Shown here: positions 53,550 to 64,000 of the stretch, piece after piece
Layout: every line of letters starts with the position of its first letter
How positions within the stretch are numbered: position 1 is the stretch's first letter
Assembly: GCF_013283195.1 (NCBI RefSeq)
Contig: NZ_JABEKT010000002.1
Span: 186,001-250,000, forward strand
DNA length: 64,000 nucleotides
Direction: 5' to 3'
Origin: Ensifer adhaerens
Lineage (GTDB): Bacteria > Pseudomonadota > Alphaproteobacteria > Rhizobiales > Rhizobiaceae
Translations under genes and position numbers: made by a program
Notes under the pieces: generated by a model
What the model was told of the DNA's origin: nothing
What the model saw: only the letters and a program-made list of their open reading frames with translations
Databases searched by the model: none

Positions 53550-54074
53550 ATGTCAGAGAAATCAGCTTCGCATTCGATGCTCGACGACGCGATCGTGGCT
53601 TACTACGACGAGCTCTGCACGATGACGCGGCAGCGCGGCCATGCGTCGGCAACGGCAAACGACGTCGTTCACGAACTCTATGTGCGGCTGGTGGACCGGC
53701 GCACTTCGCTTCAGGGCAAATCGTCCTTGCGTGCGTTTCTGCGCCGCGCTTGCGCCAATCTCGGCATCGATCGGCTGCGCCGCGACCGCTTCGAACTCAA
53801 GCTTTTCTCCGGCAGCGAAGAAGAGGCGCTTGCCGTTGCGAGCGATATCGCCGCTCCCGATGCCAACATCGACCTTCGCCGCAGGCTGCAGATTCTGAAA
53901 ACGGCGATCATGGAGATGTCGCTGCAAAGACGTCGCGTTTTTCTCGCCAATCGGATCGGCAATCTGAGCTCCGACGAAATTGCGATGCGCACCGGCATCA
54001 GCCGCAACATGGTGGACCGGCATCTGCGCAAGGCCTACCTGCATTGCCTGGATCGTCTGGAGGAGGTGTCGTGA
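53550..54074 (+). CDS. FecI-type ECF RNA polymerase sigma factor
   Basis: A 174-residue ECF sigma factor. Region 2 is around AYYDELCTMTRQRGHASATANDVVHELYVRL with FLRRACANLGIDRLRR, and region 4 around LSSDEIAMRTGISRNMVDRHLRKAYLHCL (residues about 130-165). It is the usual size for the iron-transport sigma group. Its stop overlaps the FecR ATG by one base (TGATG). The group is activated by a signal through TonB receptor and FecR, and the operon is behind an iron-box motif. Confidence 0.93.
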   Translation: MSEKSASHSMLDDAIVAYYDELCTMTRQRGHASATANDVVHELYVRLVDRRTSLQGKSSLRAFLRRACANLGIDRLRRDRFELKLFSGSEEEALAVASDIAAPDANIDLRRRLQILKTAIMEMSLQRRRVFLANRIGNLSSDEIAMRTGISRNMVDRHLRKAYLHCLDRLEEVS

Positions 54075-55066
54075 TGGCGCTTGATAGACGGCATGCGCCG
54101 ACCGGCAAAGCATCGGATCGCAACCACAAGACGCGTGAAAAGCGGGTGCGTGAGCAGGCGGTGAACTGGCTGGTGCTCCTGAACGGCGACCCTTCGAATG
54201 AAAAGCTGCAACTGGCGTTCGAGCGGTGGCGTGCGGAAGACCCTGTCCATGCCGAAATCTTTGCGCGGGCGCAGAGGGCGGTCGGCGACGCCACGCTGTT
54301 GATCCGGCGCGAGCCGGAGTTTGCCGAGAGGGCGGTGCAGGCGCCCGCAAATCGCCGAAAGACCCTCGCCTCGCTTGCCGCCGTCCTTATCGTCGGCATC
54401 GGCGCCTTTCTCGCGCTCGACGGCGCAATGTGGATGCGCGCGGACGTCATAGCCGGAACTGGCGAACGGCCGACCCTGAGGCTCGACGACGGCTCGACGC
54501 TGCAGCTCAACGCCCAATCGGCTGTCGCCTACGACTTCACCCCAGGCGAACGCCGGATCGTTCTGTTGCGTGGCGAGGTGTTTGTTCAGGTTGCGACCGA
54601 CAGGGACAGGCCGTTCGTCGTCGAGGCGGGAGCGGGAACGACGACTGCGCTCGGAACGGCATTCGACGTCAACCTCACCGACGACGGGGCCAGCGTCACG
54701 GTACTGGAGCACGCGGTGTCGGTTGCGACAGACCGCGTGACATCGCCAAGCCGCGTCGAGGTCAACGAACAGGTGAGTTACAATCATGAAGGCAGGCTCG
54801 GCGACACCAAGCCGGTTGATCCGCTGTTGGCGGCCGCATGGCGCGACGGGCGTCTCGTCTTCGACGGGCGCACCATCGCGTCCGTCGTCGAGGAAATCGG
54901 TCGTTACATCCCGGGCAAAATCCTGATCGCCGATGCCGCGGTCGGCGCCAGACGTGTCTCCGGCAGCTTCGATCTCTCCGATCCGGTCAGGGCGTTGCAG
55001 GGTCTTGCCGAAGCCTTCGACATCAAGGTCACCCGGATCGGACCCTACGTCACGATCCTGCGCTAA
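54074..55066 (+). CDS. FecR-type anti-sigma/signal transducer
   Basis: A 330-residue single-pass membrane protein. The cytoplasmic N-terminal part (DUF4880-like, EQAVNWLVLLNGDPSNEKLQLAFERW) holds the sigma factor, a membrane segment lies near 97-116 (LAAVLIVGIGAFLAL), and the periplasmic FecR domain (LRLDDGSTLQLNAQSAVAYDF, LRGEVFVQVATD, VEAGAGTTTALGTAFDVN) and a C-terminal secretin/TonB-like short domain follow. The ATG at 54074 overlaps the sigma-factor stop and has GGAGG before it. It links the receptor in the outer membrane to the sigma factor. Confidence 0.92.
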   Translation: MALDRRHAPTGKASDRNHKTREKRVREQAVNWLVLLNGDPSNEKLQLAFERWRAEDPVHAEIFARAQRAVGDATLLIRREPEFAERAVQAPANRRKTLASLAAVLIVGIGAFLALDGAMWMRADVIAGTGERPTLRLDDGSTLQLNAQSAVAYDFTPGERRIVLLRGEVFVQVATDRDRPFVVEAGAGTTTALGTAFDVNLTDDGASVTVLEHAVSVATDRVTSPSRVEVNEQVSYNHEGRLGDTKPVDPLLAAAWRDGRLVFDGRTIASVVEEIGRYIPGKILIADAAVGARRVSGSFDLSDPVRALQGLAEAFDIKVTRIGPYVTILR

Positions 55067-55162
55067 AAAAATCGGACGCGAGGTGTCCCTGTATCGGGAC
55101 CTCGTTCGTCCAGAAACCAGACCCGGCCTCTTCTCGGCCATCCTTCATTGTCTGGGACCATC

Positions 55163-57655
55163 ATGCCATATTCGAATGCGACCGGCGGACGCCGCCACTC
55201 CGGAATTTTCAACCTGCTGATGGCAGGTACGGTGTTTGCCTTTACGGCCACGGGTGCGCTTGCCCAGGATGCCTCGGTGCATCATGTCGATGTGCCGGCC
55301 GGCAAGCTGACCGCCGCCGTCAACCGCCTCGCGAGCCAACTCAAGCTGCAGGTCGTGTTCGACAGCTCGGTTGCGTCAGGGGTCAGCACATCTGGTCTTT
55401 CCGGTGAGATGACGGCGGATGAGGCGCTCTCGCGGTTGCTGAGTGGAACCGGCGTCCGCTATCGCTTCGTCGGCGGGTCGACGGTAAAGCTCATGAGCGC
55501 CACCGAAACCTCCGAGCCGGTCGAAGCCGACGGGACCAAGCTCGCGCCGATCGTCGTGCGCGGCGATGCCAATCGCGGCGATCGGGCGCCGAATGTCGCC
55601 ATCCTCGATGCCGAAGACATCGAGAAGGCACAGGCCTCGAGCCTGCCGGAATTGCTGCAGAAAACCCCCGGTGTGTCGCTGGGCGGTGGAGTGCGCATCG
55701 AAGGGCAGACGATTGCCATTCGCGGCTTCGCCCGGCAGTCCGACGTCAGGATCATCCTCGACGGCGCACCGAAGAATTTTGAGAAATACGACCAGGGAAC
55801 GGTCTTCATCGAGCCCGAATTGCTCAAGCGCGTCGAGATCGAAAAAGGCGCGACCTCGGTGCGTTACGGCAACGGCGGCTTCGGCGGCACCGTGCTGATG
55901 GAAACCAAGGACGCGACCGACATGCTGCGGCCGGGTGAGGAGTGGGGCATCTGGGCCAAGTCCGGATTCCAGAGCGCCAACAAGCAGTTTCTCGAAACCG
56001 GCGCGCTCTACGGCAAGTCGGATTTCGGCGGTCCGGTCACCTATGACGGCCTTCTGGCGGCGACCTGGCGCAAGAGCGACGACATGCGCGTCGGCGGCGG
56101 CGAGATCTACAACTATTCCAATTCGAAGCTCACGACCCTGCTTGCCAATGTCGGTGCCGAGTATGACGGCCACGAGATCAGGGGCACAGTTGCCTACGGT
56201 GAGAACGACAACTGGGGGCCGGTCGCCGCCATCCGCGGCCAGTCGGCGCCGTCGGATTTCAACATCGCCCGCTACGGCTATAAGGAAGCGATGCGCCGCC
56301 TGCTCACCTGGCGCGAGATCGAAGACTTCACCTCGACGCTGAATTACAGTTATGCCGGCGACAGCGACCTGGTGAACTACCGGATGATGGCGAGCTTCTC
56401 GTCGACCAGCCAGCACGCGACGCGCCCCGATATCCCCGGGCTCAACCCGAGCGCATCGGTCGGCGGCTATGAGAACGATGCCACCTATAGCGACATCAAG
56501 TTCGAAGCCGAAAACACCTCCAACTTCACGCTCAGCGGCCTGTCGCACAGCCTGAACTACGGCGTCCAGTATCTCGACCATGATCGCGACATCTGGATGT
56601 ACGACATCGCCAACCGCACCCAGGCACAATACAATTATGGCTACTACGCTCCCTGGTTCATGCCGGAAGGCACGCAGAGGACCGTTGCGGCCTTCGTTCG
56701 CGACAGGATCGAGCTCACCGACACCCTGACCGTGACGCCGGGCCTTCGCTATGACCACGTGCGTTCCAAGGGCGTGCCGAACGATGCGCCGCGCTTCAAC
56801 AATCCGCTGGCTGGACACGATTATTCTGCCGTCTCGCATCAGGGGGTGACGCCGGCGATCAGCCTTTCGTGGGAAGCAGCGCCCTCGGTGCGGTTCTTTG
56901 CCGACTGGGCCTATGCGATGCGCGTGCCCAACATCGACGAGATCTACTCGACGCAGAGCGTACAGACCAAGGCATCCGGCACCAGCCGCGATCTCGACGT
57001 CGAGCGCAACAGCACCTTCAATATCGGCGTCGATATGAGCTTCAACGATGTACTGACGGCCGATGACATGCTGTCGACGCGGATCTCGGCCTACAACAAC
57101 CACGTCTCCAATCCGGTCACACGTCGGTTTGGAACTATCAACCTGGCCGGCGTTTCCGGCAATGTCCCGTTCTACTGGAACACCCCGTCCTACGATATCA
57201 GGGGCATCGAGCTGCAATCGCATTACGAGACCGAACGCATGTTCGCCGATCTCGGTGTCTCCTGGATGACAGGCGAGCGCACCGGTGCCGTCAACAATGT
57301 CTGGGGTCCCGACACCTACATCAACGACCTCGCGCCCCTGACGGTGATCGCCACCGCTGGCATCAAGGTGCCGGACCGGGACCTCGCGTTCGGCTGGACC
57401 GGGACCTTCGTCGATGACCAGAACCGTACGCCCTACAATCAGGGCGGCCAGACCTATGCCCGCCCGCCGAGTGCCGGTTATGCGGTGCACGGCCTCTTCC
57501 TCGACTGGACGCCGACAACGGGCCTCATGGAAGGCGGCGAAGTGCATCTGGCGATCGACAACATCTTCGACAAGTACTACGAGCCCTATCTCAGCGACGG
57601 TATCTCGGCGATGCCCGGCCGGAACTTCAAGGTCGCGATCAGCCGGAAGTTCTAG
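55163..57655 (+). CDS. TonB-dependent receptor with STN signalling domain
   Basis: An 830-residue outer-membrane receptor. The signal peptide is cut at about 34 (ALA-QD). The N-terminal STN domain (about 36-95, VPAGKLTAAVNRLASQLKLQVVF) is the part that contacts FecR in transenvelope signalling. The plug follows (LPELLQKTPGVSLGGG, RIILDGAPKNFEKYDQG) and then a 22-strand barrel ending in NFKVAISRKF with the terminal Phe. The late barrel resembles the haem/haemoglobin receptor group, but siderophore use cannot be excluded. The ATG at 55163 is preferred over TTG 55148. The gene completes a sigma/anti-sigma/receptor operon. Confidence 0.92.
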   Translation: MPYSNATGGRRHSGIFNLLMAGTVFAFTATGALAQDASVHHVDVPAGKLTAAVNRLASQLKLQVVFDSSVASGVSTSGLSGEMTADEALSRLLSGTGVRYRFVGGSTVKLMSATETSEPVEADGTKLAPIVVRGDANRGDRAPNVAILDAEDIEKAQASSLPELLQKTPGVSLGGGVRIEGQTIAIRGFARQSDVRIILDGAPKNFEKYDQGTVFIEPELLKRVEIEKGATSVRYGNGGFGGTVLMETKDATDMLRPGEEWGIWAKSGFQSANKQFLETGALYGKSDFGGPVTYDGLLAATWRKSDDMRVGGGEIYNYSNSKLTTLLANVGAEYDGHEIRGTVAYGENDNWGPVAAIRGQSAPSDFNIARYGYKEAMRRLLTWREIEDFTSTLNYSYAGDSDLVNYRMMASFSSTSQHATRPDIPGLNPSASVGGYENDATYSDIKFEAENTSNFTLSGLSHSLNYGVQYLDHDRDIWMYDIANRTQAQYNYGYYAPWFMPEGTQRTVAAFVRDRIELTDTLTVTPGLRYDHVRSKGVPNDAPRFNNPLAGHDYSAVSHQGVTPAISLSWEAAPSVRFFADWAYAMRVPNIDEIYSTQSVQTKASGTSRDLDVERNSTFNIGVDMSFNDVLTADDMLSTRISAYNNHVSNPVTRRFGTINLAGVSGNVPFYWNTPSYDIRGIELQSHYETERMFADLGVSWMTGERTGAVNNVWGPDTYINDLAPLTVIATAGIKVPDRDLAFGWTGTFVDDQNRTPYNQGGQTYARPPSAGYAVHGLFLDWTPTTGLMEGGEVHLAIDNIFDKYYEPYLSDGISAMPGRNFKVAISRKF

Positions 57656-57694: not shown

Positions 57695-57819
57695 TGCCCC
57701 TGGCGATGCATCGCTTATCGCCGGCGGCAGGCAGTACGACGCCACCCTTTGTTGCTGCGCTCAGTTCGTTCGGATGTGTAAACTTGCGCACGGGGCGCCG
57801 CATCCTTGTCAATCCTTGC

Positions 57820-57849
57820 TTGACAGAGGTCCATTGCCCGTATCTTAAT
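57820..57849 (+). promoter_or_regulatory. Promoter candidate for the amiCR operon
   Basis: TTGACA at 57820-57825 (CTTGAC one base earlier) is followed, 15-18 bases on, by TATCTTAAT at 57841-57849. Initiation near 57855 would give a leader of about 120 bases before amiC, in which the hairpins at 57887-57966 lie. Spacing is not ideal, so this is a candidate. Confidence 0.45.
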
Positions 57850-57886
57850 CTTGTCTACGGATTGAGCAGCTCAGTCCTTTTCACAT

Positions 57887-57916
57887 GACCCTTATGGTCG
57901 ACGGGCAGTTTCGCCC
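57887..57916 (+). promoter_or_regulatory. Leader hairpins P1 and P2 (possible ANTAR target)
   Basis: P1 is GACC-CTTAT-GGTC (57887-57899) and P2 is GGGC-AGTTTC-GCCC (57903-57916). P2 has a six-base loop starting with A, as ANTAR RNA sites do, though position 4 is T instead of the usual G, and P1 has a five-base loop. The 3' arm of P2 uses the same CCC as the terminator that follows, so both cannot form together. This arrangement fits antitermination by AmiR. Confidence 0.4.
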
Positions 57917-57966
57917 CATGATGCCCCATCTCCGATGGGAAACGCGTCATGGGGTTTTTGGTTTTT
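57914..57966 (+). terminator. Intrinsic terminator just before amiC
   Basis: An outer 8-bp stem CCCCATGA (57914-57921)/TCATGGGG (57947-57954) encloses an inner 6-bp hairpin CCCATC-TCC-GATGGG (57925-57939), followed by TTTTTGGTTTTT. It ends ten bases before the amiC start codon, so it would block the whole operon unless read through. This is the kind of leader on which an ANTAR protein acts. Confidence 0.65.
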
Positions 57967-57975
57967 GGCAGGTCC

Positions 57976-59112
57976 ATGCGTGACGCGGTGAAGATCGGTA
58001 TCCTGTATTCGACAACCGGCCCCTACGGGACGATGGGCCGCGACTGCCGCGATGGCGCCGAGTTGGCGATCGATGAGATTGCGGCGCGCCACCCCGGCCG
58101 CATCGAGCCTGTCTTCGTCGACCCGCACGCCAATATCGATCAGTACCTCGAAGGCGCACGCACGCTGCTGCGCGATCAGGGCTGCCGGCACATCGTCGGC
58201 ACGATCACGTCGCTGGCGCGCAAGGAGGTCATTCCGCTCGTCGAAAAGCATGACGGGCTGCTCTGGTACATGTGCCCCTATGAGGGTTTCGAGGCCAACG
58301 ACAACGTCATTTACACCGGCGGCTGCCCGAACCAGCATCTGCTGCCGTTGCTCGACTATCTCTTGCCGCGCTTTGGTCGCCGGCCCTATCTCGTCGGCGC
58401 CAACTATGTCTGGGGCTGGGAAATGAACCGGCTCGCGCGCGAGCTGATCGAAGAGGCGGGCGGATCGGTGCTCGGCGAGCGCTATCTGCCGCTCGAGGAA
58501 ACCGCGGTCGAGCGTATCGTCGCCGAGATCGAGCAGCGGCGGCCGAGCTTCATCCTCAACAATCTCGTCGGCCCGTCGAGCTATGCCTTGCACGCCGCGA
58601 TCCGGGCGCTCGGCGAACGCGATCCCGCCTTCCGCCCTGAAAACTGCCCGGTCGTCAGCTGCGATCTGCAGGAATGCGAGCTCATCGACATCGGCCTCGG
58701 CGTGGCGACCGGCCAGCTCTGTGCCGCCGCCTATTTCGACACGGTAAGTTCCGCCGAAAATGCGGCATTCAAGGCTGAAGTGAGCGCGCGGTTCGGCGCT
58801 TCGCGTCGGATTTCCAGCGTTTTTGCCAGTGCCTATGCCGCCGTCAAGCTCTGTGCCGAGGCAATCATCGATGCCGGCACCGACGATCCGGCCGTGGTGT
58901 CCCGCCTGCTTTGTGCGGCGCCGCGCTCGACCGTTCTCGGCCCGCTGCGGATCGATGCCGAAACCCGCCACGCGGCACTTCCCTTCCACCTTGGGCGCAT
59001 CAATGACGAGGGTGGCTTCGATATCATCGCTTCCGAGCCCGCCATCGTTGCCGATCCGTATCTGACGGGTCGTCGCACGCGCAAACCACCCCAGCTCCGG
59101 ATCGTCTCATGA
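57976..59112 (+). CDS. amiC: AmiC-like amide-sensing binding protein (cytoplasmic)
   Basis: A 378-residue periplasmic-binding-protein-type fold without a signal peptide, like the amide sensor AmiC of Pseudomonas. Start of the fold VKIGILYSTTGPYGTMGRDCRDGAELAIDEI, then GTITSLARKEVIPLVEKHDGLLWY, YVWGWEMNRLARE and AAYFDTVSSAENAAFKAEVS. The start ATG 57976 is chosen because ATG 57949 lies inside the terminator stem; CAGG precedes it. The stop overlaps amiR by four bases (ATGA). It would hold AmiR silent until an amide ligand binds. Confidence 0.9.
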   Translation: MRDAVKIGILYSTTGPYGTMGRDCRDGAELAIDEIAARHPGRIEPVFVDPHANIDQYLEGARTLLRDQGCRHIVGTITSLARKEVIPLVEKHDGLLWYMCPYEGFEANDNVIYTGGCPNQHLLPLLDYLLPRFGRRPYLVGANYVWGWEMNRLARELIEEAGGSVLGERYLPLEETAVERIVAEIEQRRPSFILNNLVGPSSYALHAAIRALGERDPAFRPENCPVVSCDLQECELIDIGLGVATGQLCAAAYFDTVSSAENAAFKAEVSARFGASRRISSVFASAYAAVKLCAEAIIDAGTDDPAVVSRLLCAAPRSTVLGPLRIDAETRHAALPFHLGRINDEGGFDIIASEPAIVADPYLTGRRTRKPPQLRIVS

Positions 59113-59690
59113 GGGAAACACCCAACTTTGCCGGCTGGCGTGCCACGATCCTCCATCGCGAGGATGCAACGACCGAGCGGCTCACTCGCCAGCTGAAGCT
59201 CTTCGGTTTCCACGTCCTTGTGCAGTGGACGCCGCTTGCCGCCGACCATCTGCCCGATCTCATTCTGGTCGACGCCGATCAGGGCTGGACCGGACTGTTG
59301 CCATGGACCGACGAACGCGCGCCGCGACCCCTCGTTGCCCTGCTTGGGTCTGAAGCTCCCGGCCGTGTCGCCTGGGCGATGGATCAGGGTGCCTCCGCCA
59401 TCATCGCCAAGCCGCTAGCCTCGTCGGCGGTCTATCCCGCGCTGGTCATGGCGCTTGCCATCCATCGCGAGCGCCAGGCCATCGTGGAGAAGATCGCCCA
59501 TCTGGAAGAGCGGGTTCGCATGCGCCCGCTGGTCCATGCCGCTGTGCAGAAAATCAGCCATGCCCGCAAGCTGGATGAGGAGCAGGCCTATCGGATCCTG
59601 CGCAACTGCGCGATGCAGCGTCGGCTGTCGATGGAGCAGGTCGCCGCCTCGATCATCGGCGGCGCCGAGCCGCTGCCGGAGGCTGGCTGA
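59109..59690 (+). CDS. amiR: AmiR-like ANTAR-domain antiterminator
   Basis: A 193-residue protein with a degenerate receiver-like domain (about 10-120, no clear phospho-acceptor set), a coiled-coil (about 125-150) and a C-terminal ANTAR RNA-binding domain (about 140-190, VHAAVQKISHARKLDEEQAYRILRNCAMQRRLSMEQVAASII in parts). It starts inside the amiC stop (ATGA) and ends in the permease start (TGATG), so the three are translationally linked. It would promote read-through at a terminator in the operon leader. Confidence 0.9.
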   Translation: MRETPNFAGWRATILHREDATTERLTRQLKLFGFHVLVQWTPLAADHLPDLILVDADQGWTGLLPWTDERAPRPLVALLGSEAPGRVAWAMDQGASAIIAKPLASSAVYPALVMALAIHRERQAIVEKIAHLEERVRMRPLVHAAVQKISHARKLDEEQAYRILRNCAMQRRLSMEQVAASIIGGAEPLPEAG

Positions 59691-60538
59691 TGCAGGCATT
59701 GAAAGCCATGGTCCGCCAGCCGGCAGCGCTGTTCGGCCTGATCGTCGTTGCTCTTGTGGTGTTCCTTGCGATCGCCGCGCCGCTGATCGCGCCCTATAGC
59801 CCTGACGAGCAGATGTTCGACGGGTTGACGCTGGAGGGCGCGCCGCTGCCGCCGAGCGCGCAGTTCCTGCTCGGCACCGACACGCTCGGGCGCGACCTGT
59901 TCTCCCGGCTTCTCTACGGCGCGCGCACCTCGCTCGTTATCGGTCTCGTCGCCAACGGCATCGCGGTGACGATCGGGCTGCTGATCGGCATTCTCTCCGG
60001 CTATATGCGCGGCATCGTCGGCGGCGCGCTGATGCGCTTCACCGATCTGATGATGGCCTTTCCGGCGTTGCTCTTGGCCATCGTTCTCGCAGCATTGTTG
60101 CGCCCCAGTCTCTGGATCGTCGCCATGGTGATCGCGCTCGTCAACTGGGTGCAGGTGGCGCGCATCGTCTATACCGAAACGCGCGGGCTGGTGGAGCGCG
60201 ACTTCATCCTGGCCGAGCGCTCGCTTGGCGCCGGGCATGGCCGCATCCTCTTTCATCACATCCTGCCGCATCTGATCCCGACGGCGATCGTCTGGGGAAC
60301 GCTCGGCATCGCCACGACCGTTCTGCTCGAAGCGACGCTCTCCTTTCTCGGCATCGGCGTGCAGCCGCCGACACCGTCCTGGGGCAATATCATCTTCGAA
60401 AGCCAGAGCTATTTTCAGGCCGCTCCCTGGCTGGTCTTCATCCCCGGTGCCGTCATCCTTTTGACCGCGCTGTCCTTCAATCTGGTCGGCGATGCTCTTC
60501 GAGACATACTCGACCCGACGCAGCGGGGGAGGGGCTGA
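59690..60538 (+). CDS. ABC transporter permease, DppC type
   Basis: A 282-residue peptide/nickel-type permease. The N-terminal TM1 (LFGLIVVALVVFLAIAAPLIAPY) is followed by a periplasmic insert with GTDTLGRDLFSRLLYGARTSL, the DppC signature, and the EAA loop around AERSLGAGHGRILFHHILPHLIP. It couples with the AmiR gene stop by TGATG and is one base from the DppB-type gene. It forms the inner-membrane channel with that protein. No ATPases are in the window; they should lie to the right. Confidence 0.93.
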   Translation: MQALKAMVRQPAALFGLIVVALVVFLAIAAPLIAPYSPDEQMFDGLTLEGAPLPPSAQFLLGTDTLGRDLFSRLLYGARTSLVIGLVANGIAVTIGLLIGILSGYMRGIVGGALMRFTDLMMAFPALLLAIVLAALLRPSLWIVAMVIALVNWVQVARIVYTETRGLVERDFILAERSLGAGHGRILFHHILPHLIPTAIVWGTLGIATTVLLEATLSFLGIGVQPPTPSWGNIIFESQSYFQAAPWLVFIPGAVILLTALSFNLVGDALRDILDPTQRGRG

Positions 60539-60539
60539 C

Positions 60540-61460
60540 ATGGTTTTCCTCCTCCTTCGCCGTGTGGTGCAGACCGCGCTCATTCTTCTGGGCGTTGCCG
60601 CCATCACCTTCCTTCTTCTCTATGCATTGCCTGCCGATCCGGCCCGCATGATCGCCGGCCGCAGCGCCACGGCGCAGACGGTTGCCAACATCCGGCGCGA
60701 ACTCGGTCTCGACCAGCCCCTGCTCGTCCAGTTCTGGAGCTATCTGCAGGGTCTGTTTCAGGGGGACCTCGGACGGTCCTATGCGCAGAAAACCGATGTC
60801 GGCGCGCTGATTGCCGCCCGGCTGCCGGCGACCTTGATCCTGATGGCGGCAGGCATCGCCGTCGAGGTGGTGCTCGGCGTGTTTCTCGGCGTGCTCGCGG
60901 CCGTGCGCCGCGGCGGCTTCGTCGACCGCGCCGTGATGATGGCGTCCTTCGTTGGCGTCTCGGCGCCGCAGTTCGTGGCGGCACTCTTGCTGCTCTACGT
61001 CTTCGCCGTCACGCTCGCCTGGTTTCCAATGAGCGGCTTCGGCACGCCGGCGCATGTGGTGCTGCCGGCGCTGACGCTCGGTGTTCTCGGTGCCGGCTGG
61101 TATGCGCGCATGGTGCGCTCGGCGATGATCGACGTGCTCAACCAGGATTATGTCCGCACTGCCCGGGCAAAGGGCCTGTCGTCGGCGCGCATCATCTTTC
61201 GTCATGCACTGCCGAACGCGCTGCTGCCGATCATCGCCATGATCGGCATCGATATCGGCCAGTTCATGAGCGGCGTCGTCGTGGTCGAGGCCGTCTATGG
61301 CTGGCCCGGCATCGGCCAGCTCGCCTGGCAGGCGATCCAGCAGGTCGACATTCCAATCATCATGGGGGTGACGCTCGTCTCGGCGCTCGCGATCGTGCTC
61401 GGCAATTTGCTTGCAGACATTCTCGCTCCGCTCGTCGATCCGCGCATTCGCGCCCGTTAA
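60540..61460 (+). CDS. ABC transporter permease, DppB type
   Basis: A 306-residue permease with the DppB N-terminus (VVQTALILLGVAAITFLLLYALPADPARMIAG), RRELGLDQPLLVQFWSYL and EAA loop NQDYVRTARAKGLSSARIIFRHALPNALLP in its second half. The ATG at 60540 follows GGGGGAGGGGC, one base after the stop of the DppC-type gene; a longer frame to 60492 is rejected. The order DppC then DppB is the reverse of the common one. It imports the solute bound by the next protein. Confidence 0.93.
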   Translation: MVFLLLRRVVQTALILLGVAAITFLLLYALPADPARMIAGRSATAQTVANIRRELGLDQPLLVQFWSYLQGLFQGDLGRSYAQKTDVGALIAARLPATLILMAAGIAVEVVLGVFLGVLAAVRRGGFVDRAVMMASFVGVSAPQFVAALLLLYVFAVTLAWFPMSGFGTPAHVVLPALTLGVLGAGWYARMVRSAMIDVLNQDYVRTARAKGLSSARIIFRHALPNALLPIIAMIGIDIGQFMSGVVVVEAVYGWPGIGQLAWQAIQQVDIPIIMGVTLVSALAIVLGNLLADILAPLVDPRIRAR

Positions 61461-61490
61461 ATTATGCAGCAACCAAAAAGGGGAACAACA

Positions 61491-63110
61491 ATGTTCAAAA
61501 GCTGGCTTCGAAATTCAACCGTCGCAACGGCGCTGATGCTTGCGCCGCTACCTGGCTTCGCGCAGGACGCGCCAAAGCAGGGCGGCGATATCGTCATCAC
61601 CTACAAGGACGACATCGCCACGCTCGATCCGGCCATCGGCTACGACTGGGTCAACTGGTCGATGATCAAGAGCCTGTTCTCGCGGCTGATGGACTATACG
61701 CCCGGCACCACAGAGCTGGTGCCGTCGCTTGCCGAGAGCTTCGAGGTCGCGCCCGATGGCCTGACCTATACGTTCAAGCTGCGCAAGGGCGCGAAGTTCA
61801 CCAATGGCCGCGAAATCGTCGCCGCCGACGTGAAGTACTCGATCGAGCGTGCGGTCGATCCGAAGACGCAAGGGCCGGGCGCCGGCTTCTTCGGCGCGAT
61901 CAAGGGTTTTGACGACGTCACCGGCGGCAAGACGACGACGCTCGAAGGCATCGAGGCACCGGACGCGTCGACGGTGGTCTTCCGCCTGTCGCGCCCCGAT
62001 GCGACCTTCCTGCATGTTCTCGCCGTCAACTTCGCCTCCGTCGTGCCGAAGGAAGCGGTCGAAGCCGCCGCCGGCGATTTCGGCAAGAAGCCGGTCGGCT
62101 CGGGCACCTTCATCCTGAAGGATTGGACCGTCGGCCAGAGCCTGACTTTTGAGCGCAATCCGGATTATTTCATCAAGGACATGCCGCACATCGACAAGTT
62201 CACCGTCGAAGTCGGGCAGGAGCCGCTGGTCGCGCTTCTTCGCCTGCAGAAAGGCGAGGTCGACATCGCCGGCGACGGCATTCCGCCGGCAAAGTTCCTC
62301 GAGATCAAGAACTCGCCCGAGGGCGCCGAGATCATCGTCGACGGCCAGCAATTGCACACCGGCTATGTGACGCTCAACACCAAGGTCAAGCCCTTCGACG
62401 ACGTCAAGGTGCGTCAGGCCGTCAACATGGCGATCAACAAGGAACGCATCACCCGCATCCTCAACGGCCGGGCAACGCCCGCCAACCAGCCGCTGCCGCC
62501 GCTGATGCCGGGCTACGACAAGGCCTTCACCGGCTACGCCTTCGACGTCGAAAAGGCCAAGGCCCTGCTTGCCGAAGCCGGCCACCCCGATGGCTTCGAG
62601 ACGATCCTCTATTCCACCAACACCGATCCGCAGCCGCGCATCGCCCAGGCGATCCAGCAGGATCTGGCAGCCGTCGGCATCAAGGCCGAGGTTCGCGCGC
62701 TCGCCCAGGCCAACGTGATTGCCGCCGGCGGCACCGAAGGTGAAGCACCGATGATCTGGTCGGGCGGCATGGCCTGGATCGCCGACTTCCCGGATCCGTC
62801 CAACTTCTACGGTCCGATCCTCGGCTGCTCGGGTGCTGTCCAGGGCGGCTGGAACTGGTCCTGGTATTGCAACGAAGATCTCGACGCACGCGCGGTTGCT
62901 GCCGATTCCATGTCGGATCCGGCCAAGGCTGGCGAGCGCCAGGCGGCGTGGGGCAAGATCTTCACCGACATCATGGCGGATGCGCCCTGGGTGCCGGTGA
63001 CCAACGAACGCCGTGTCGTCGCCAAGTCGCCGCGCATGGGCGGTGCCGGCGAAATCTACGTCGATCCGACCCGCGTCATCAACTACGACGCGATCTACGT
63101 GAAGCAATAA
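61491..63110 (+). CDS. ABC transporter substrate-binding protein, family 5
   Basis: A 539-residue periplasmic binding protein of the peptide/opine class. The signal peptide (VATALMLAPLPGFAQ, cut near 28) is followed by the family segment LRKGAKFTNGREIVAADVKYSIERAVDP and the late VRQAVNMAINKERITRILNG. The ATG at 61491 follows GGGGAAC; an earlier ATG 61464 is less likely. The AmiC/AmiR genes and the formamidase that follow suggest that it captures a short amide, amide-containing peptide or related compound. Confidence 0.93.
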   Translation: MFKSWLRNSTVATALMLAPLPGFAQDAPKQGGDIVITYKDDIATLDPAIGYDWVNWSMIKSLFSRLMDYTPGTTELVPSLAESFEVAPDGLTYTFKLRKGAKFTNGREIVAADVKYSIERAVDPKTQGPGAGFFGAIKGFDDVTGGKTTTLEGIEAPDASTVVFRLSRPDATFLHVLAVNFASVVPKEAVEAAAGDFGKKPVGSGTFILKDWTVGQSLTFERNPDYFIKDMPHIDKFTVEVGQEPLVALLRLQKGEVDIAGDGIPPAKFLEIKNSPEGAEIIVDGQQLHTGYVTLNTKVKPFDDVKVRQAVNMAINKERITRILNGRATPANQPLPPLMPGYDKAFTGYAFDVEKAKALLAEAGHPDGFETILYSTNTDPQPRIAQAIQQDLAAVGIKAEVRALAQANVIAAGGTEGEAPMIWSGGMAWIADFPDPSNFYGPILGCSGAVQGGWNWSWYCNEDLDARAVAADSMSDPAKAGERQAAWGKIFTDIMADAPWVPVTNERRVVAKSPRMGGAGEIYVDPTRVINYDAIYVKQ

Positions 63111-63117
63111 GCCCTTG

Positions 63118-63147
63118 GGCTCTCCGGACCTCGATGTCCGGGGAGCC
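63118..63147 (+). terminator. Strong intercistronic hairpin between binding protein and formamidase genes
   Basis: GGCTCTCCGGAC pairs with GTCCGGGGAGCC (12 pairs with one T-G wobble) around the six-base loop CTCGAT. It lies eight bases after the binding-protein stop and 23 bases before the formamidase start. A weak T-rich run (TCTTATC) follows. Such hairpins often raise binding-protein mRNA relative to downstream genes, by partial stop or 3' protection. Confidence 0.6.
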
Positions 63148-63170
63148 TCTTATCATCTGGGGAGAGAAAA

Positions 63171-64000
63171 ATGTGCGTTGCCTGCACCCATACCATTCAC
63201 CGCGCCAAACACCACTTCGGCTGGAACCGCGATTTTGAACCGACATTGATCGCCAAGCCGGGCGAGACCATTCATTTCGAGTGCCTGGATTCGTCGGGCG
63301 GACAGTTGGGTGCGGGCTCGACGCTCGAGACGCTGGCAAAGCTCGATTTCAACCGGATCAATCCGGTGACCGGTCCTGTTTTTGTCGAGGGTGCTGCACC
63401 CGGCGACGCGTTGAAGGTGACGATCCGCCGCTTCGTCCCATCCGGCGTCGGCTGGACCGCCAATATTCCGGGCTTCGGCCTGCTTGCCGACCAGTTCAGC
63501 GAGCCGGCGCTGCACATGTGGTCCTATGACGCCATCAGCATGGCGCCGGCGCTTTACGGCCCGGGCGGTCGCGTTCCGCTCAAACCCTTTGCCGGCACGA
63601 TCGGCGTGGCGCCGGCCGAACCGGGTCTGCATTCCGTCGTGCCGCCGCGTCGGGTCGGCGGCAATCTCGATATTCGCGACCTGACCTCGGGCGTGACGCT
63701 CTATCTGCCCGTCGAGGTCGAGGGCGCGCTGTTTTCGATCGGTGATACGCACGCGGCCCAGGGCGACGGCGAAGTCTGCGGCACCGCCATCGAGAGCCAG
63801 ATGGAGGTCGAAGCGACCATCGAACTCGTCAAGGATGCGCGTCTCGCAAGTCCGCGCTTCACAACGCCGGGGCCGGTCACCCGCCATCTCGACGCCGCAG
63901 GCTACGAAGTTACCACCGGCATCGGTCCCGATCTGATGACCGGCGCGCGCGAAAGCCTGATGCGCATGATCGACCTGCTCGGTGCCGAGCATGGATTGAG
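63171..64000 (+). CDS. Formamidase/acetamidase-family amidohydrolase (3' end outside window)
   Basis: The first 276 codons of an FmdA/AmdA-type amidase, which hydrolyses formamide or acetamide to acid and ammonia. The early metal-binding-type start (MCVACTHTIHRAKHHFGWNR), GETIHFECLDSSGGQLGAGS, NPVTGPVFVEGAAPGDALKV and the diagnostic VEVEGALFSIGDTHAAQGDGEVCGTAIE are present. The ATG at 63171 follows GGGGAGAG. Its place after the AmiC/AmiR-led transporter argues that the operon imports and cleaves amides. Further genes, including the ABC ATPases, should follow. Confidence 0.93.
   Translation, partial: MCVACTHTIHRAKHHFGWNRDFEPTLIAKPGETIHFECLDSSGGQLGAGSTLETLAKLDFNRINPVTGPVFVEGAAPGDALKVTIRRFVPSGVGWTANIPGFGLLADQFSEPALHMWSYDAISMAPALYGPGGRVPLKPFAGTIGVAPAEPGLHSVVPPRRVGGNLDIRDLTSGVTLYLPVEVEGALFSIGDTHAAQGDGEVCGTAIESQMEVEATIELVKDARLASPRFTTPGPVTRHLDAAGYEVTTGIGPDLMTGARESLMRMIDLLGAEHGL

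Follow-up and report, generated by a model that had tools for sequence, protein, structure and literature searches.

The window analysed here is the whole stretch of 64,000 nt taken from Ensifer adhaerens (NZ_JABEKT010000002.1, positions 186,001-250,000), and its forward strand carries an operon that opens with amiC and amiR. The first gene, amiC (57976..59112, +), encodes a Peripla_BP_5 binding protein of the amide/urea type to which a sensor role is assigned by homology, and no signal peptide is visible by eye. Its likely start is the ATG at 57976, the ATG at 57949 listed by the ORF tool falling within the terminator described below. The protein matches P. aeruginosa AmiC (1pea) at E 3.1e-48. 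Compared with the PDB, it scores 171 bits against an extracellular ligand-binding receptor (8tg1), 168 against 1pea and 129-139 against urea-binding proteins, and its top NCBIfam model is UrtA, at 217 bits against a cut-off of 493. The second gene, amiR (59109..59690, +), encodes a protein with AmiR_N and ANTAR domains (PF21332 and PF03861), both of which exceed their curated cut-offs (34.5 versus 27 and 42.1 versus 27.3 bits), in agreement with a preliminary description of this DNA, made from its letters, that placed an ANTAR protein in the operon. AmiR matches AmiR 1qo0 at E 6.8e-8 and EutV 6wsh at E 1e-6.

The rest of the operon (59690..63998, +) comprises two Opp-type permeases and an SBP_bac_5 binding protein, which form a transporter of the Opp/Dpp/Nik type, and a hydrolase of the FmdA_AmdA family, the last gene, which extends beyond the window end. 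It is followed by the reading frame of an Opp/Dpp-type ABC ATPase that lies largely outside the window. The hydrolase had been called a formamidase; its membership of the FmdA_AmdA Pfam family stands, but the specific name is weak because the 276 aa within the window reach only 105 bits against the NCBIfam formamidase equivalog, which has a cut-off of 500. The gene set and its order are present in 20 of the 22 named loci, Sinorhizobium/Ensifer, Rhizobium, Pararhizobium and Phyllobacterium being among the relatives with the operon. At one locus, L038 from Rhizobium sp. RCAM05350, the AmiC match falls below those of its neighbours and the operon match ends inside oppB, and this operon may be broken. 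Upstream of the leader, at 53550-57655, lie reading frames that by eye look like a sigma factor and an FecR-like protein, together with the gene of a TonB-dependent receptor that has an STN domain; this receptor gene was found in 4 of the 22 named loci (L033-L036).

The leader before amiC begins with a sigma-70-like promoter (57820..57849, +) formed by TTGACA at 57820-57825, a spacer of 18 nt and CTTAAT at 57844-57849 as a possible -10. The promoter-like TTGACA had been pointed out before, and among the 32 related leaders aligned below TTGAC is kept in all 32 and the -10 region is almost invariant; the transcript would start near 57856. Close to that putative start, folding gives a 5' hairpin that we call P0 (57859..57877, +; GGATTGAG-CAG-CTCAGTCC). 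It surrounds the conserved motif GATT(G/A)(A/G)GCA. A fold z-score under -1 is obtained for the 5' segment in 27 of 32 leaders, and the hairpin is missing from some members (L040, L041 and L043). Next come an ACAT element (57883..57886, +; 31 of 32 in the own-clade alignment) and, immediately 3' of it, hairpin P1 (57887..57899, +; GACC-CTTAT-GGTC), of which three core pairs are formed in 32 of 32 leaders. After a linker of 3 nt follows P2 (57903..57916, +; GGGC-AGTTTC-GCCC), the proposed antiterminator hexaloop, which has A at loop position 1 (A1) and no G at position 4 (G4) and forms four pairs in 32 of 32. The two small hairpins of the preliminary description are thus both present, and P0 adds a third at the 5' end. 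In the intrinsic terminator (57914..57966, +), 57914-57924 pairs with 57944-57954 around an inner hairpin at 57925-57939, and a U-tract (T5GGT5, 57955-57966) ends nine bases ahead of the amiC ATG. P2 and the terminator have bases 57914-57916 in common, and the overlap of the terminator 5' arm with the second hairpin is therefore as first reported. A simple promoter and terminator scan of the window listed neither element because its loop limit (3-8) and its -10 rule exclude this terminator and CTTAAT.

The alignment comprises 32 distinct leaders from operons of this type, one of them the window's. A block running ACATGAC...GTC...GGGCA-loop-GCC-terminator is almost invariant among them and the DNA upstream of it is variable. 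The comparison of related strains proposed earlier finds P2 conserved in all 32 distinct leaders, the window's among them: every one has a hexaloop whose stem counts 3 or more pairs and an A at loop position 1. The window leader itself folds with a z-score of -3.47, and 1 of 200 shuffles was equally stable. Covariation of the hairpins in homologous leaders, on which the preliminary description had staked its reading, is clear for the terminator and not for the small hairpins. For the terminator, 91.1% of cells are paired, 21 cells are compensatory and the covariation score is 0.190, all higher than in 500 of 500 shuffles; the paired cells and the covariation score also lie above every slid register. 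Two weaker measures gave 7 double-change pairs, reached by 18 of 500 shuffles and two slid registers, and 19 further pair types, reached by 12 of 500 shuffles and exceeded by one slid register with 20. P1 and P2 are paired in all cells of the 32 rows and nearly invariant, with one compensatory cell each and a covariation score of 0.066 that was reached by 1 of 500 shuffles and is lower than that of the slid register +3 (0.073). This low variation of P1 and P2 in their own clade, with 2 compensatory cells, counts against antitermination by AmiR.

The overlap between P2 and the terminator was compared with 125 other terminator-like sites in the window and 22 loci. A hexaloop on at least 4 pairs lies over the terminator 5' arm in 23 of 23 leaders versus 7 of these 125 sites, and 1 of the 125 carries such a hexaloop with A1; under a stricter terminator filter the overlapping hexaloop is present in 21 of 21 leaders versus 0 of 9 other sites.

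Folding with and without P2, the check suggested earlier, gave the behaviour expected of a switch. In the window leader the pair probability of P2 is 0.99 in the nascent RNA and that of the terminator is 1.00 in the full leader, and forcing P2 costs 3.7 kcal/mol (4.9 on average among the leaders). Across the set, a nascent prefix reaching just beyond P2 has P2 above 0.5 in 31 of 32 leaders (the exception is L052) and P1 in 28 of 32; once the leader is complete, the terminator base passes 0.5 in 29 of 32 leaders and P2 does so in 2 of 32. P1 and P2 are therefore predicted to form in the nascent RNA, with the terminator then displacing P2. In L012 and L013, P2 is still likely in the full leader (0.78 and 0.61) and the switch is unclear there, a predicted folding that would count against the AmiR reading. 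L012, L014 and L015 have no terminator score, their alignment columns fitting the terminator poorly.

A covariance model of P1 and the terminator was built from the 32 leaders. In the genome of the window it finds a single strong site at 2.3e-29, the next best match being at 0.62, although these E-values are rough and the window leader is in the training set; three weak extra matches occur in this genome. Among 199 genomes of the family, 13 have a strong match (E < 1e-16), one each, and the next match is at 1.5e-6. These 13, whose leaders all belonged to the training set, are exactly the genomes with a close AmiR (at least 56% identity), and each strong site lies about 1.2 kb upstream of amiR, before amiC. 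A further 13 weaker matches (1.5e-6 to 0.1) were found in family genomes, of which seven were inspected. Two of these, in G161 (1.5e-6, locus L016) and in G115, are located upstream of more distant amiC-amiR pairs, about 1.2 kb ahead of amiR, and those in G070, G190, G123 and G150 showed no such leader on reading. When run on 43 chosen loci, the model also detects leaders at several AmiC-AmiR loci that are more distant, with E from 6.5e-19 upwards. The P2 string alone gave 25 matches at up to 2 mismatches in the window's genome versus 24 in the reversed control, and among 8 such places inspected there a terminator was present only at the amiC leader.

The seventh inspected match, in G183 (L245:752-825; E 0.001), is a textbook leader: the P1 loop AACGGT and the P2 loop AATGTG both have A1 and G4, and a terminator follows. 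It lies about 50 nt after an ANTAR domain with lysine at the position of EutV K149, in a genome without a close AmiR, and downstream of it an ABC transporter operon of the urea/amide type encodes a Peripla_BP_5 protein and a permease of the branched-chain type. The family therefore holds the canonical form too. This A1/G4 leader, which serves as a positive control, was recovered by a model trained on leaders without G4.

A survey of P2 loops drew on AmiR loci in sampled genomes, 199 from the family, 297 from the order and 398 from the phylum, plus further stretches. Removal of duplicates and of loci with less than 150 nt upstream left 167 leaders, and 166 once L115, which lacks AmiR, was set aside. 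Where AmiC is at least 40% identical (n = 112), 88 leaders have an A1 hexaloop overlapping the terminator, 5 with G4, 39 with G at position 5 (G5) and 44 with neither. The other 24 comprise 18 without P2 and 6 with another first base, including a wrong pick at L053, where the script chose another hairpin and the real P2 loop is AGTTTC; a GGC-ANNNNN-GCC string is present in 19 of these 24 leaders. Below 40% (n = 54), 6 leaders have A1/G4, 2 have another loop and 46 have no P2 directly before amiC, and these 46 count against antitermination by AmiR. In the window's own clade (AmiC at least 60%, n = 42) the scored loop has a G4 in 0 of 42 leaders, and most leaders of the sister group have A1/G5. 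None of the 32 aligned leaders has P1 as an A1/G4 hexaloop (the window P1 loop is CTTAT); the sole A1/G4 hexaloop among them is a stray in L043, outside P1. The preliminary description had allowed that the loops depart from the A1/G4 rule and may be a variant, and the departure is stronger than it stated. Among 13 loci with AmiC below 40%, none passed a filter for a dual A1/G4 hexaloop accompanied by a terminator. Two leaders before amiC do carry A1/G4 loops in both hairpins, L069 (P1 AGCGCC, P2 AATGGA) and L076 (P1 AGCGTC, P2 AACGAA), with 8-11 nt between P1 and the P2 core.

The close packing of P1 against P2 extends beyond the own clade. A P1 lies 0-4 nt before P2 in 28 of 39 G5 leaders and 31 of 44 leaders with neither G, versus 14% and 10% of dinucleotide shuffles; for the leaders without G4 combined this is 59 of 83 versus 0.10-0.14 in shuffles, and for the A1/G4 group 5 of 11 versus 15%. 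The P1 stems differ yet stay complementary (GACC/GGTC, GGCC/GGCC, CGGC/GCCG, CTCT/AGAG and CTGG/CCAG). ACAT adjoins the detected P1 in 17 of 28 (G5) and 27 of 31 (neither), that is in 44 of 59, and none of the 5 A1/G4 leaders with a detected P1 has it there. Over the whole 45 nt ahead of P2 it is found in 22 of 39 and 40 of 44, together 62 of the 83 leaders without G4, but also in 4 of 11 with A1/G4, so ACAT is enriched in leaders without G4 rather than restricted to them.

In the published EutV-RNA structure the flipped G4 is described as stacking on Y164 and being held by R142, K149 and E160 (PMC8934654), and the same report presents G4 as the sole base-specific contact in the crystal structure and M172 as essential for RNA binding (PMC8934654). 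Aligned to EutV, the window AmiR keeps R142, E160, Y164, R168, M172 and R175, and its substitutions are K143 to P, K147 to A, K149 to V, N173 to Q and R177 to S. Its close relatives also have V, or else I or L, at residue 149. Sorted by loop class, K149 is present in 4 of 11 AmiRs whose leaders have A1/G4 and in 0 of 83 whose loops have A1 without G4; it also occurs in 2 of 8 where the loop begins with another base and in 23 of 64 for which no P2 was scored. The six K149 AmiRs with a scored loop thus comprise four with A1/G4 and two (L066 and L073) with a G-first pick. V or I at 149 occurs together with G4 in 7 rows, that is, K149 is lost in 7 of the 11 A1/G4 AmiRs. On an AmiR tree that was built quickly and has several long branches and an uncertain root, 3 changes are required for G4 and one for K149, with one supported independent pair; we therefore make no statistical claim that G4 and K149 change jointly, and a tree-aware test of loop G4 against protein residues was not passed, the independent changes being too few. 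A separate AmiR-like group (L058, L062, L070, L071, L077-L081 and others) has Thr in place of the ANTAR Met172, and Thr at this position occurs in 18 of the 64 loci in the group where P2 was not found.

We consider antitermination of its own operon by AmiR, as proposed in the preliminary description, very probably the best explanation of the leader because of the leader's position, the competition between P2 and the terminator, the gene content and the co-occurrence with a close AmiR. The comparison upholds an antitermination-type leader, P2-terminator competition and co-occurrence with this type of AmiR; for the rest of the proposal we infer AmiR binding, the ligand, control by AmiC and read-through. 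RNA polymerase would start near 57856 and make P0, ACAU and P1, and then P2. Without inducer, AmiC would hold AmiR, and the emerging 3' arm of the terminator would displace P2 and end transcription before amiC. Once AmiC sensed its ligand, AmiR would be freed to bind P2, perhaps aided by P1 and ACAU, and would block closure of the terminator base. The resulting read-through would yield AmiC, AmiR, the transporter and the hydrolase, a positive feedback. AmiR of this lineage would then read its RNA without the G4 that is flipped out in known ANTAR targets.

Four other readings were weighed against antitermination by AmiR. The switch could be read by the genome's NasT-like ANTAR protein, which has a NasS-like partner, with the operon answering to nitrate. 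The genome does contain two ANTAR matches, the second ANTAR gene adjoins a binding protein that is NasS-like by eye, and the NasT-like protein keeps the EutV residues R142, K143, K149, E160 and M172. However, the strong element matches track a close AmiR in 13 of 13 genomes and stand directly before amiC-amiR, and a K149-type protein would be expected to favour G4 loops, of which this clade has none; we regard control by NasT as improbable. The NasT-like gene (L001:1096-3034, C12 near 389391) has, by eye, the NasS-like protein after it and an Fnr/Crp-like regulator before it, and the region after the gene contains A1/G4 hexaloops and no clean leader. Marginally less probable again is an ordinary attenuator, or simply the end of the upstream gene, that involves no regulator and in which P1 and P2 are incidental. 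A same-strand gene stops at 57655, some 260 nt short of the terminator, and the full leader folds strongly, but the leader stays when its upstream neighbour changes (the TonB gene being there in 4 of 22 loci), a promoter-like site lies between that gene and the terminator, the P2-terminator overlap separates leaders (23/23) from other sites (7/125), and P1 stems that vary in sequence across clades remain complementary.

Ribosome-mediated attenuation by a leader peptide was rejected and has very little probability left to it. The ATG at 57885, in the conserved CACATGAC, is present in 31 of 32 leaders and in the window opens a 32-codon frame (57885-57983) that spans P1, P2 and the terminator; yet the frame ranges from 8 to 132 codons among leaders and shifts relative to amiC, a Shine-Dalgarno sequence is not visible, and the ATG is missing there in many more distant relatives. 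A small-molecule riboswitch, or another RNA-binding protein acting on the same terminator, would suit a leader that is structured and conserved, but no Rfam family reaches its gathering score (the best in the leader has E 1.7), the conserved P1-P2 core is just about 35 nt long, and the leader adjoins an ANTAR gene in the examined loci, which were collected by that gene. We hold this equally unlikely, and antitermination by AmiR remains the preferred reading.

As an AmiR target, the leader is best explained as one that acts like an ANTAR target and is to be filed as a variant, because three features of the dual hexaloop fail: the G4 of P2, the A1/G4 loop of P1 and the linker of 5-12 nt. A broader proposal, to which we give even chances, is that this AmiR lineage has acquired a changed mode of ANTAR recognition: the lysine that reads G4 would have been lost, the G would be lost in the own clade or placed at position 5 in the sister group, and P1 would have turned from a binding hexaloop into a close-packed structural hairpin, often after ACAU. 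If this is true, the pair forms a specificity class apart from the NasT-type ANTAR protein of the same cell, and searches that demand A1 and G4 would miss such leaders. A conserved set of AmiR leaders that lack G4, with relatives that retain it, would make it possible to test directly what ANTAR proteins recognise, and the same comparison would address how a regulator pair changes its code. The covariance model can be used for finding overlooked ANTAR operons, and the system may offer an antiterminator-leader pair without cross-reaction to NasT.

One of the closest known counterparts is the P. aeruginosa operon, with the order amiE-B-C-R-S. Like the operon described here, it combines AmiC as sensor and AmiR as antiterminator with a leader terminator (PMC3369931, PMC8934654), before an amide operon that includes amiC and amiR. 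Here, unlike there, amiC is the first gene, amiE is absent, and the operon has an Opp-type transporter and an FmdA-type hydrolase; both loops of the amiE leader are reported to carry A1/G4 (PMC3369931), whereas the loops here lack G4. No paper on such a leader in rhizobia was found among the matches listed, most subscription journals lying outside the search; PMC7496416, PMC8164766 and PMC13209695 are also cited.

The mechanism of ANTAR antitermination is published (PMC3369931, PMC8934654), and the published target search model retained A1 and G4 in each loop (PMC3369931). Like the EutV target at E. faecalis eutP, the leader studied here has P2 at the 5' base of the terminator and a loop with A1; unlike it, it lacks G4, its P1 is no A1/G4 hexaloop, and 3 nt of linker separate P1 from P2, versus 5-12 nt reported for the E. 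faecalis eut genes (PMC3369931). Shortening the linker of an EutV target to 3 nt is reported to impair induction (PMC3369931), and the 3-nt linker, like the missing G4, counts against the AmiR reading; a survey of actinobacteria permitted linkers of 2-25 nt. The NasS-NasT and NasR systems of nitrate antitermination also act on a leader terminator (PMC6759348), and NasS-NasT likewise pairs a binding-protein sensor with an ANTAR protein, although the signal and the proteins differ. Closest to hand are L069, L076 and L245, where, as in the window, an amide/urea-type operon is preceded by a leader whose P2 overlaps the terminator; unlike the window, they carry A1/G4 in both P1 and P2, and their ANTAR proteins have K149.
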